Source: Stenotrophomonas sp. ZAC14D1_NAIMI4_1 (lineage in GTDB: Bacteria > Pseudomonadota > Gammaproteobacteria > Xanthomonadales > Xanthomonadaceae). Taken from it: a stretch of 64,000 bases of DNA. Below are positions 6,692 through 13,713 of the stretch, piece by piece; position 1 is the first letter of the stretch, and the number at the start of each line of letters is the position of its first letter. The translations under genes and the position numbers were made by a program. Under the pieces are notes generated by a model. It was not told the DNA's origin and ran no database searches. It was given only the letters and a program-made list of their open reading frames with translations. The stretch spans positions 3,250,407 through 3,314,406 of the forward strand of contig NZ_CP026001.1 in the NCBI RefSeq assembly GCF_003086775.1. Reading direction: 5' to 3'.

Positions 6692-8044
6692 ATGGCGGCA
6701 AGCCTGCAGGTTCCATCACGCTGTGTGATCTGGTTCGGCCAGCCCCTGGCGGGCGAGCGCGAGGCGCTGGCGGCCGCCGGTTGGCAGCTGCGCTGCGTCA
6801 GCCCCTCGCCCGCCATGGCCGTGGGCCTGCGCGGGCGCGACCACCTGGTGGCCGTGCTGGACCTGCGCCATCTCGATGCAGAGGCGCTGGGGCCCTTGCT
6901 GCCCTGGGTCGAGCAGCACCACCATCTGCCCTGGCTGGCCGTGCTGCCGGCAGGCCTGGATGCACCACCGCCCAGCTGGGCACCGCTGCTGCGTGCCTGC
7001 CAGGACCAGTTCACCCTGCCCCGCGAACTGCAGGACCTGCTGACGGCGATGCAGCGTGACTGCGGCGAGGAGGATCCGCCCACGGCATCGATGCGCGACG
7101 GCGGCGGCCTGCCGGCCCTGATCGGCGACAGCCAGGCGCTGTTGGCCGTACGGGCTGCCCTGCACAAGTTCGCCCCGGTGGAACTGCCGGTGCTGGTCAC
7201 CGGCGAAACCGGCACCGGCAAGGAGCTGGCGGCGCAGGCCCTGCACGCCTTGTCCGGTCGTGCCGGCCGGCCCTTCCTGGCGGTCAACTGCGGCGCCATT
7301 CCAGCCAGCCTGGTGCAGTCGGAGCTGTTCGGCCACGAGCGCGGCGCCTTCACCGGGGCCGCGCAGCGCCGGGTGGGCCTGTTTGAAACCGCCGATGGCG
7401 GCACGGTGTTCCTGGACGAGGTGGGCGACCTGCCGGCCGATGCCCAGACCAGCCTGCTGCGGGTGCTGCAGGAAGGCACCCTGGAGCGGGTCGGCAGCAA
7501 CCAGCCCCTGCGGGTGGACGTGCGCGTGCTGGCGGCCACCCATGTCGACCTCGAGCAGGCCGTGGCCCAGGGGCGGTTCCGCCGCGACCTGTACTACCGG
7601 CTCAACGTGCTGCGGCTGCCGATGCCGGCGCTGCGCGACCGTGGCAACGACGTGCTGCTGCTGGCCGAGCATTTCCTGCGCAGCTTCCGCAACCGCCATC
7701 CGGGCCGCGCGCGCGGCTTCGATCCCGGCGCGCGCCTGGCGATGCGCCATTTCGACTGGCCCGGCAACGTGCGCGAACTGTTGAACCGGGTGCAGCGCGC
7801 GGCGATCGTCAGCGAACACGAACTGATCAGCGCCAGCGACCTGGACATGGCCGACGCCGAGACCCCGGCCCCGCGCGCGGTGCTGCAGGATGCCCGCGGC
7901 CAGGTCGAGCGCGATGTGCTGCTGCGGACGCTGAAGATGCATGGCTACAACGTATCGGCCTGCGCGCGGCACATGCAGGTATCGCGGGTGACGGTGTACC
8001 GGTTGTGCCGGAAGCATCGCCTGGAACTGCCTCCGGAGCGGTAG
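6692..8044 (+). CDS. Sigma-54-dependent activator with VpsR-like N-terminus; candidate fap regulator
   Basis: A 450-residue bacterial enhancer-binding protein. Residues 1-125 form a receiver-like domain without an obvious phospho-acceptor aspartate, as in VpsR-type activators. The AAA+ domain follows: Walker A GETGTGKE (171-178), the sigma-54 contact loop GAFTGA (218-223), Walker B GGTVFLDEVGDL (about 236-247) and FRRDLYYRLNVLRLP. The C-terminal Fis-type helix-turn-helix is NVSACARHMQVSRVTVYRLCRK. The ATG at 6692 has a GGGGGAAGG ribosome site. The gene converges on fapF, and a sigma-54 promoter precedes fapA, so I infer it activates fap. Some VpsR/FleQ-like proteins sense cyclic di-GMP; that is not shown here. 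Confidence 0.88.
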   Translation: MAASLQVPSRCVIWFGQPLAGEREALAAAGWQLRCVSPSPAMAVGLRGRDHLVAVLDLRHLDAEALGPLLPWVEQHHHLPWLAVLPAGLDAPPPSWAPLLRACQDQFTLPRELQDLLTAMQRDCGEEDPPTASMRDGGGLPALIGDSQALLAVRAALHKFAPVELPVLVTGETGTGKELAAQALHALSGRAGRPFLAVNCGAIPASLVQSELFGHERGAFTGAAQRRVGLFETADGGTVFLDEVGDLPADAQTSLLRVLQEGTLERVGSNQPLRVDVRVLAATHVDLEQAVAQGRFRRDLYYRLNVLRLPMPALRDRGNDVLLLAEHFLRSFRNRHPGRARGFDPGARLAMRHFDWPGNVRELLNRVQRAAIVSEHELISASDLDMADAETPAPRAVLQDARGQVERDVLLRTLKMHGYNVSACARHMQVSRVTVYRLCRKHRLELPPER

Positions 8045-8050
8045 GAAGCC

Positions 8051-8073
8051 AGCCGAGCATGGCTCGGCTCTAC
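8051..8073. repeat. Single SMAG/REP palindrome
   Basis: AGCCGAGC-ATG-GCTCGGCT followed by CTAC. The stem sequence equals that of the pair at 1512-1580. It lies directly between the regulator stop and the convergent terminator. Confidence 0.8.
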
Positions 8074-8079
8074 TGAAAG

Positions 8080-8102
8080 AACGCCGGGCCAGGCCCGGCG
8101 TT
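8080..8102. terminator. Bidirectional terminator between the fap regulator and fapF
   Basis: A perfect 11-bp stem, AACGCCGGGCC (8080-8090) and GGCCCGGCGTT (8092-8102), around one base. It is placed between two convergent genes with A's on one side, so it can end both transcripts. Confidence 0.7.
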
Positions 8103-8127
8103 ACCGATGCATCATCACCGCAATCGG

Positions 8128-12453: not shown

Positions 12454-12496
12454 GGTGCCCTCTCTCATCAGTGATACATCGGGTGGTGGGTACTGC

Positions 12497-13120
12497 TCAC
12501 GGGTTGCCCTGGACGACCAGGCCAAGCACGTTGGCCGTGTCGTTGCGGGCTCCCGCGATCTGATTGAGTTGCAGGACACCGTCGAAGCCCCGCAGTGCCG
12601 ACGCGGAAACGCCGACACTACGGATACCCGCCGCAACACCGTCGCCGGTGTCGCCCTGCCCCCCTGTTGACGCGATGTCCGACGCCGCCAAAGCCGCGTC
12701 GTCGGTCTCGCGTATCCCTTGCCGGGCCAGCGTCGCGCTGACGACGTTGAGCGTCGTGTTGGCGATGCCGCTGGTCTGGTTGATCGATGCGATGCCACTG
12801 GCGCCTTCCAGCGCCTGGCCTTCGATATGTGCGCTGGCCTGCAGCGGCCCGGACAGCACCACGTCGGCATGGCGCTGCTGGCGTGCGGCGATGGCGACGT
12901 TGGCCTGGTCGCCGGTTGCCATGCCCTGCAGGTTGGCCTGGATGTTCAGGTCGCCGCTGGCCTGGTTGACCATGATGGCGCCGCTGGCACCAGCCAGCGC
13001 GCGGTCGCCGATGCGGGCCACGTCCAGGTAGGACAGCATGCCGCTGTAGTCATCGGCCCAGGCCAGGGCCGGCGCAGCCGCCAGCACCAGCAGCAGCGCG
13101 CCACGTGCCGCGCGCTTCAC
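12497..13120 (-). CDS. fapB: Minor amyloid / nucleator, FapB-like
   Basis: A 207-residue secreted protein with a signal peptide (1-22, ending ALAWA). It carries three degenerate copies of the same repeat as FapC: GASGAIMVNQASGDLN (44-59), GASGIASINQTSGIAN (106-121) and GFDGVLQLNQIAGARN (178-193). In Pseudomonas FapB is homologous to FapC and nucleates the fibre. Start is a GTG that overlaps the fapA stop as GTGA, indicating coupled translation. The weaker repeats with NQ in place of VN distinguish it from FapC. Confidence 0.87.
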   Translation of the reverse strand: MKRAARGALLLVLAAAPALAWADDYSGMLSYLDVARIGDRALAGASGAIMVNQASGDLNIQANLQGMATGDQANVAIAARQQRHADVVLSGPLQASAHIEGQALEGASGIASINQTSGIANTTLNVVSATLARQGIRETDDAALAASDIASTGGQGDTGDGVAAGIRSVGVSASALRGFDGVLQLNQIAGARNDTANVLGLVVQGNP

Positions 13121-13665
13121 TTGCCACCGCCCTGCGGCGCAGCCGCACCGAGCGGGAACTGTGCCAGCGCGCCGCGTACGGTGTCGCCGATGCCGCGGGT
13201 GGTATTGCCGACCGCACCCAGCGGGCCGCTCATCGCGCCGCCCAGGGCATTGCCGCCGAGCGCGCCGTCACTGGAACGGCCCAGGGTGCCGCCGAGTGCC
13301 TGGTGGGTCACCCGCTCCACGGTGGTGCCACCGGGCGCGGCCAGGTGGCCGGTCTGGCCCGCGCCGAGCCCGGCATAGTCGTCATCGCTCAGTTCGTCCA
13401 TGCCGCTGGAGCCGCCGCCGCTGCCGCTGCCGAGTGCGGTGGCGATCTCATGCTGCGGTTTGGGGTCGGCGATCAACGCCATGCCGGGCGGCGCCATGCG
13501 ATAGGCCGGACGTGCGGCCACATCCCGCAGCAGGACGATTTCGCCCGGCTGCGGCTTCACACCCTGGCGTGCACCGGAGGCGGCGGCCGCCAGCGGGCAG
13601 GCCAGGGCCAGCAGCAGCGCCAGCTGCCGGACCGAGGAACCGAGATGGGTGGTGCTGCTGTCCAT
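13117..13665 (-). CDS. fapA: FapA-like protein, first gene of the fap operon
   Basis: A 182-residue exported protein: signal peptide (about 12-30), then a proline-rich region with PGEIVLLRDVAARPAYRMAPPGMALIADPKPQ that I recognise as FapA-like, and a disordered Gly/Ser tail. In Pseudomonas FapA affects the FapB/FapC content of fibrils and may chaperone the subunits in the periplasm. GGGAGAG lies 6 bases before the ATG. The gene is first downstream of the sigma-54 promoter. Part of the tail (ALGGTLGRSSDGALGGNALGG) is low complexity. Confidence 0.8.
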   Translation of the reverse strand: MDSSTTHLGSSVRQLALLLALACPLAAAASGARQGVKPQPGEIVLLRDVAARPAYRMAPPGMALIADPKPQHEIATALGSGSGGGSSGMDELSDDDYAGLGAGQTGHLAAPGGTTVERVTHQALGGTLGRSSDGALGGNALGGAMSGPLGAVGNTTRGIGDTVRGALAQFPLGAAAPQGGGK

Positions 13666-13698
13666 GCCGCTCTCCCGTTGCGTATGCGCAGGGACAGA

Positions 13699-13713
13699 GC
13701 AGCTTCCGTGCCA
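13699..13713 (-). promoter_or_regulatory. Sigma-54 (-24/-12) promoter of the fap operon
   Basis: On the minus strand 13713-13698 reads TGGCACG-GAAG-CTGCT. The -24 box TGGCACG is perfect and the GG-to-GC spacing is exactly 10 bases; the -12 box is CTGC in place of TTGC. Transcription would start near 13687, giving a leader of about 20 bases before the fapA ATG at 13665. The GAFTGA activator at 6692-8044 is the obvious partner. Confidence 0.75.

Follow-up and report, generated by a model that had tools for sequence, protein, structure and literature searches.

A Fap functional-amyloid operon with a linked sigma-54 activator and candidate enhancer sites upstream of fapA in a Stenotrophomonas genome

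We analysed a 64,000-nucleotide stretch of the genome of Stenotrophomonas sp. ZAC14D1_NAIMI4_1 (contig NZ_CP026001.1, positions 3,250,407 to 3,314,406; hereafter the window) and found that seven genes at 6692-13665 very probably make up a Fap functional-amyloid operon together with its own sigma-54 activator. The complete operon, fapA-B-C-D-E-F, runs on the minus strand from 13665 to 8128 with the known gene order and content, and the activator gene on the plus strand is convergent with it. This reading draws on the family-model matches, solved relatives, catalytic triad and repeats of the products, on the linked activator, the promoter element and the upstream sites, on the two sigma-54 genes of this genome, and on the layout known from Pseudomonas fluorescens PF07. 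Judged from sequence, the gene identities, triad, repeats, promoter element, upstream sites and activator linkage are all present or conserved. An earlier note on this DNA had proposed the six-gene operon, and all six genes lie where it had put them; the end coordinate that it gave, 13713, falls on base one of the promoter element TGGCAC-N6-TGC.

Products of the fap operon

The top NCBIfam match of each of the six products was the corresponding Fap model, and the roles given here are those assigned by analogy with Pseudomonas. The predicted outer-membrane export pore FapF (8128..9423, minus strand, as are all six genes; FapF model, 372 bits, E 2.7e-111) consists of an N-terminal coiled-coil-like part and a beta-barrel. 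Its barrel, for which a grouping with unrelated transporters would have spoken against the earlier note, aligns over residues 111-430 with the crystallised Pseudomonas FapF (PDB 5o65, E 1.5e-77). FapE, a putative fibre-associated subunit of 249 residues (9469..10218), was recognised by its own model (84 bits, E 1.1e-23), in line with the earlier assignment. The C39 peptidase FapD (10232..10936; C39_FapD, 258 bits, E 7.5e-77; Pfam Peptidase_C39, 69 bits) carries the triad Cys63, His147 and Asp163, which had been predicted correctly to the residue. A Pfam scan of the window proteins recognised the activator and the C39 peptidase, and the barrel weakly.

The predicted fibre subunits are FapC (major; 11077..12453, 458 residues with a long polar N-terminal part; 169 bits, E 1.9e-49) and FapB (minor, probable nucleator; 12497..13120, 207 residues; 86 bits, E 3.3e-24). 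The amyloid repeat that they had been said to share is present three times in each, around residues 44, 106 and 178 of FapB and 169, 237 and 420 of FapC; three repeats with linkers between them are what PMC3792158 uses to define these proteins. FapC matches the solved FapC chains 9nqd (E 4.7e-13) and 9u4u (E 6.5e-13) with the repeats in register. Its structure model has a mean predicted local distance difference test (pLDDT) score of 54.5, about 70-76 in the repeats and under 50 across 321-357 and for the larger part of 1-130; a fold search with this model ranked a solved FapC first (9nqd, E 2.2e-3), with no match passing E 0.001. Near the FapC N-terminus, five loci (L132, L133, L140, L144 and L145) have Asn-Thr-type dipeptide runs of 14-16 residues; the run measures 2 in the close relative L099, and its length varies among species.

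FapA (13117..13665, 182 residues), the chaperone-like protein, gave the lowest score (chaperone_FapA, 29 bits, E 8.6e-7). The earlier description as a Gly/Pro protein of FapA type held for the family and not for the proline, since its composition of 19% G, 17% A and 7% P makes it Gly/Ala-rich. Among 40 related stretches, a FapA match was obtained in 32, comprising all of L057-L088 and none of L089-L096.

We considered whether the genes belong instead to a Fil-type pilus or another system that combines a C39 peptidase with a barrel. The FilB and FilC models do match FapD (121 bits) and FapF (78 bits), yet these two proteins are matched much more strongly by the Fap models (258 and 372 bits). 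Fap models also rank top for the remaining four products, and FapC can be aligned with its solved counterparts, which makes this alternative highly improbable.

The linked activator and the fapA control region

The activator gene (6692..8044, plus strand) encodes a bacterial enhancer-binding protein of 450 residues with a receiver-like N-domain, an AAA+ domain (Pfam Sigma54_activat, 231 bits) and a Fis-type helix-turn-helix (HTH_8, 26 bits). Walker A lies at residue 171 and GAFTGA at residue 218, bearing out the adjacent GAFTGA activator described earlier. Asp57 of the receiver-like domain is retained in 25 of 25 aligned rows. The AlphaFold model (mean pLDDT 78.6; predicted template modelling score 0.50) matches FleQ, NtrC1, LuxO, NtrX and VpsR, and precomputed VpsR-domain matches exist for 28 of 120 relatives, among the matches listed.

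We then searched for the activator (tblastn, >250 bits) in 121 loci, namely the window, the 40 stretches L057-L096 and 80 loci (L099-L178) that were the best 80 of 435. Of these loci 117 carry it, in every case in the opposite orientation to fap; its gene lies downstream of fapF in 94 of them and upstream of fapA in the remaining 23. The activator was not found at this threshold in L089, L094, L095 and L096. Operon and activator seem to move together, because neither the symporter nor the NlpC neighbour of the window locus was found in the upstream-type stretches L068, L070, L073 and L076. This linkage at two positions, and the same arrangement described for PF07 (PMC9207406), support the earlier proposal that the activator is dedicated to the fap operon.

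Ahead of fapA lies a -24/-12 (RpoN-type) element, TGGCACGGAAGCTGC (13713-13699, minus strand), of the form TGGCAC-N6-TGC. A recognisable fapA is present in 112 of the 121 loci (L089-L096 and L171 excluded), and TGGCAY-N6-TGC precedes the projected fapA start by 18 to 93 bases in 112 of 112, a figure that reflects conservation and cannot count as independent evidence, because the looser pattern was chosen after the promoters had been seen. A stricter first pattern, with C or T before TGC, did not pick up L068, L070, L073 and the majority of other genera. In the 400 bases that precede the activator gene, TGGCAY-N6-TGC occurred in 0 of 117 loci.

Upstream of this element we found repeated TGTNACA sites, which we regard as a candidate enhancer of fapA. 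The window has a near site, TGTAACA (13777..13783, minus strand), 70 bases upstream of the -24 element, and a far array (13849..13878, minus strand) of TGTATCA (13878-13872), TGTAACA (13866-13860) and TGATACA (13855-13849), 12 and 11 bases apart, the outer two being one-mismatch forms. To assess these sites we used a 10-mer similarity filter to reduce the 112 promoters to 79 non-redundant ones (some species occur in both locus sets) and derived expectations from dinucleotide shuffles. Over the 300 bases upstream of the -24 element TGTNACA occurred 136 times, with 3.4 expected, counted on the same sequences in which it had been found. A near group at -65 to -85, mostly -69 to -72, was present in 51 of the 79 promoters (0.25 expected), a far group at -138 to -190 in 57 (0.71 expected), and both together in 38; the exact near site is missing in 28 and the exact far site in 22. 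Nine promoters have no exact TGTNACA from -190 to -65 and contain one-mismatch sites, which are frequent by chance (the 79 promoters together yield about one at each position). With one mismatch allowed and a 10-13-base spacing picked after the first count, the far group comprised three sites in 26 promoters, two in another 37 and none in 16, compared with shuffle expectations of 0 for three sites and 0.15 for two. Periodicity peaked at 11.8 and 10.4-10.5 for all 136 sites and at 10.9 for the 81 far sites; these peaks are broad, so that a spacing of one helical turn is approximate. Flanking preferences are roughly symmetric.

The outer sites of the far array lie within a 13-base inverted repeat without mismatches, GGGCTGTATCAGC and GCTGATACAGCCC, that closely follows the symporter gene ending at 13897, as might be expected if the array were that gene's terminator rather than an enhancer. 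There is no T-run after the repeat, however, and the far TGTAACA at about -153 is kept where the neighbour is instead a divergent activator (e.g., L068 and L102), so we consider a terminator improbable.

Pattern counts over the window, the genome and the genus were made on other or wider sequence than the motif discovery. TGTNACA occurs three times in the window, two of them upstream of fapA, and 153 times in 78 whole loci (1.33 Mb), promoter sites included; two sites plus the promoter pattern occur once in the 4.7-Mb genome, at fapA. Across the genus, one site plus promoter gave 106 matches in 71 of 91 genomes. Sixty-six of these lie upstream of fap and share its contig and strand; they come from 66 different genomes among the 83 that have FapF. 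The combination is absent from 12 genus genomes with FapF and from all eight without it. Five genomes (G023, G030, G069, G071 and G080) have solely non-fap matches, in G030 perhaps because its contigs are split.

Several results weigh against a Fap operon under its own activator acting through these sites. Although each product gave the matching family model, the check that the earlier note had put forward, all six score under the curated NCBIfam equivalog cut-offs (FapF 700, FapD 330, FapC 195, FapB 190, FapE 250 and FapA 110). The FapF cut-off was reached by no genome in FapF-model searches of the genus, the family, the class, the family and order of G484 and two further families, and we infer that these thresholds were calibrated on Pseudomonas. 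Taken by itself, the promoter pattern is not rare (6 matches in the window vs 3.5 expected), and 40 of the 106 one-site matches lie away from fap, with 15 for a reversed control pattern. The VpsR-domain match of the activator, 17.4 bits, is under its cut-off of 23.7. At the positions of the FleQ contacts to cyclic di-GMP (c-di-GMP), which we take to be LFRS and Arg-Asn behind Walker A, the activator has LPAL and Gln-Ala; this does not exclude another c-di-GMP site. Likeness to BrfA, the PF07 activator, is one of position and domain layout. Finally, 17 more distant loci have no group of TGTNACA sites ahead of the operon; in 14 of them an activator-like match lies near fap, which may reflect just the common AAA+ domain.

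These distant loci would also suit a different explanation, in which the genes are Fap and a different regulator occupies the TGTNACA sites, the adjacent activator acting elsewhere or without them. Binding of the activator to the sites is itself a conjecture, and one site plus a sigma-54-like promoter also stands before prpB/prpC (L269) and flgA (L270), with similar matches in other genus genomes; these promoters are more likely targets of other activators. Against this explanation, the fap sites keep fixed distances from the -24 element, in the region expected of a sigma-54 enhancer, and TGTNACA is scarce elsewhere in the loci. Moreover, in 89 of the 94 downstream-type loci no such site occurs in the 400 bases that precede the activator gene, and the lack of a site combined with the promoter pattern in all eight genus genomes without FapF points the same way. 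We thus leave another regulator a real but minor chance, and continue with the linked activator as the probable occupant.

Proposed mechanism, distribution and neighbouring genes

In the model that we propose, the activator would bind the TGTNACA sites upstream of fapA, assemble an ATPase ring at high signal (perhaps c-di-GMP, by analogy with BrfA) and loop to RpoN polymerase at TGGCAC-N6-TGC, switching on fapA-F. The six Fap proteins would then enter the periplasm, where FapA may serve as chaperone and FapD may process substrates or license export; FapF would carry FapB, FapC and FapE over the outer membrane, with FapB nucleating and FapC polymerising through its three repeats. The roles of FapA-F, the RpoN control and the c-di-GMP response are borrowed from Pseudomonas work. 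Fibre formation is presumed likewise, and the weakest links are the putative binding of the activator to the sites and the nature of its signal.

More speculatively, the fapA enhancer might be an assembly platform, its two or three TGTNACA-like sites, spaced by roughly a helical turn, allowing the hexameric ATPase ring required by sigma-54 to form in advance. Activator dimers would sit side by side on the far sites, three dimers giving six subunits, and the lone near site, some 83 bases nearer the promoter, would be a second foothold. The arrangement was found in loci of Stenotrophomonas, Luteimonas, Pseudoxanthomonas and Rhodanobacter/Frateuria, though not in every locus. We judge such a platform unlikely; if it does exist, fap would switch on steeply with activator occupancy, and the locus would show in compact, natural form how DNA can template the assembly of a sigma-54 activator ring. 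A conserved candidate enhancer, a conserved RpoN element and a linked activator together provide a testable promoter.

Fap is present nearly throughout the genus, to which opportunists belong (FapF in 83 of 91 genomes), as confirmed by models and solved homologues. The earlier note was correct about its presence in a Stenotrophomonas-like genome; this presence is less unexpected than the note suggested, given that Fap in Stenotrophomonas is already reported in PMC3792158, PMC6173800 and PMC12246864 and the genus appears in a list of Fap carriers (PMC11787515). FapF was also detected in 121 of 297 genomes of the family, which, fragments aside, form two score classes of roughly 320-390 and 125-170 bits, and at E 0.001 in 74 of 370 genomes of the class, many of them weak. 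The closest named FapF is that of Stenotrophomonas cyclobalanopsidis (98%) among the best 80 of 435, a set in which the immediate relatives of the window's genome may be missing. A true Pseudomonas fap locus was not recognised among these 80, in the class, order and family searches or in a plasmid collection (18 records). One locus, L101, is from [Pseudomonas] hibiscicola and is of Stenotrophomonas type, as is L124, in a record titled Bacillus subtilis SK7B5 (FapF 79%), which looks like assembly contamination. L094, L095, L096 and the 125-170-bit class have a FapF-like barrel of a second, distant kind, accompanied by a C39 peptidase; its FapF and FapD show 28-29% and 36-39% identity, fapA, B, C and E were not recognised there, and it is possibly a separate export system.

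Directly left of the activator lies an NlpC/P60-type endopeptidase gene (5679-6449), which accompanies the activator in most Stenotrophomonas stretches of L057-L096, and by eye a second NlpC-like frame appears at about 4950-5547. Upstream of fapA is a DctA/GltP-like symporter gene (13897-15450; best matches below cut-off), a neighbour kept in many Stenotrophomonas loci. Outside the fap region, 17842-18304 contains a 91-base unit in five head-to-tail copies with start spacings of 96/90, forming a 186-base higher unit whose copies are 98% alike.

Comparison with known systems

The window operon shares with Pseudomonas Fap (PMC3792158 and PMC6173800) the gene order and content, the FapD C39 triad, the FapF homology and the three repeats in both FapB and FapC. 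It differs in FapC, where 115 residues separate the matched repeats 2 and 3, compared with 5 in the Pseudomonas chain 9nqd; of 24 sequences aligned, all but L167 conserve this insert of about 110 extra residues. A C-terminal CxxC is typical of Pseudomonas-type FapC. Chain 9nqd has CTVC near its end, whereas no Cys or C-terminal CxxC was found in the window FapC, nor any Cys in its FapB, and Cys is absent from 77 of the 79 FapC read from L099-L178. These differences fall within regions termed highly variable in size in PMC3792158, which gives FapC as 377 +/- 143 residues, and they suggest what the family can drop from, or add to, the well-studied Pseudomonas fibre.

The activator resembles FleQ of P. 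aeruginosa and VpsR of V. cholerae, both among its structure-model matches, in combining a receiver-like N-domain with AAA+; it differs from FleQ in the presumed c-di-GMP contact residues and from VpsR in a domain match that stays under cut-off. In PF07, as described in PMC9207406, brfA lies reversed just downstream of fapA-F, the RpoN promoter of fapA was mapped by rapid amplification of 5' cDNA ends, fap is down-regulated in rpoN and brfA mutants, and fapF was not up-regulated along with fapA-E; a c-di-GMP response of this control is described in PMC13101488. The window has the same reversed activator gene beside fapF and, judged from sequence, the same -24/-12 element before fapA, and its activator has the GAFTGA motif and Fis-type helix-turn-helix of a BrfA-type activator. 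Since Fap in Stenotrophomonas and the PF07 control plan are both published, the locus is a new member of a known system with a known control plan. A limited literature search, including the accessible parts of PMC9207406 and PMC13101488, returned no report of TGTNACA sites at fap, and the repeated control sites ahead of fapA look new in a fibre system that is itself already known.

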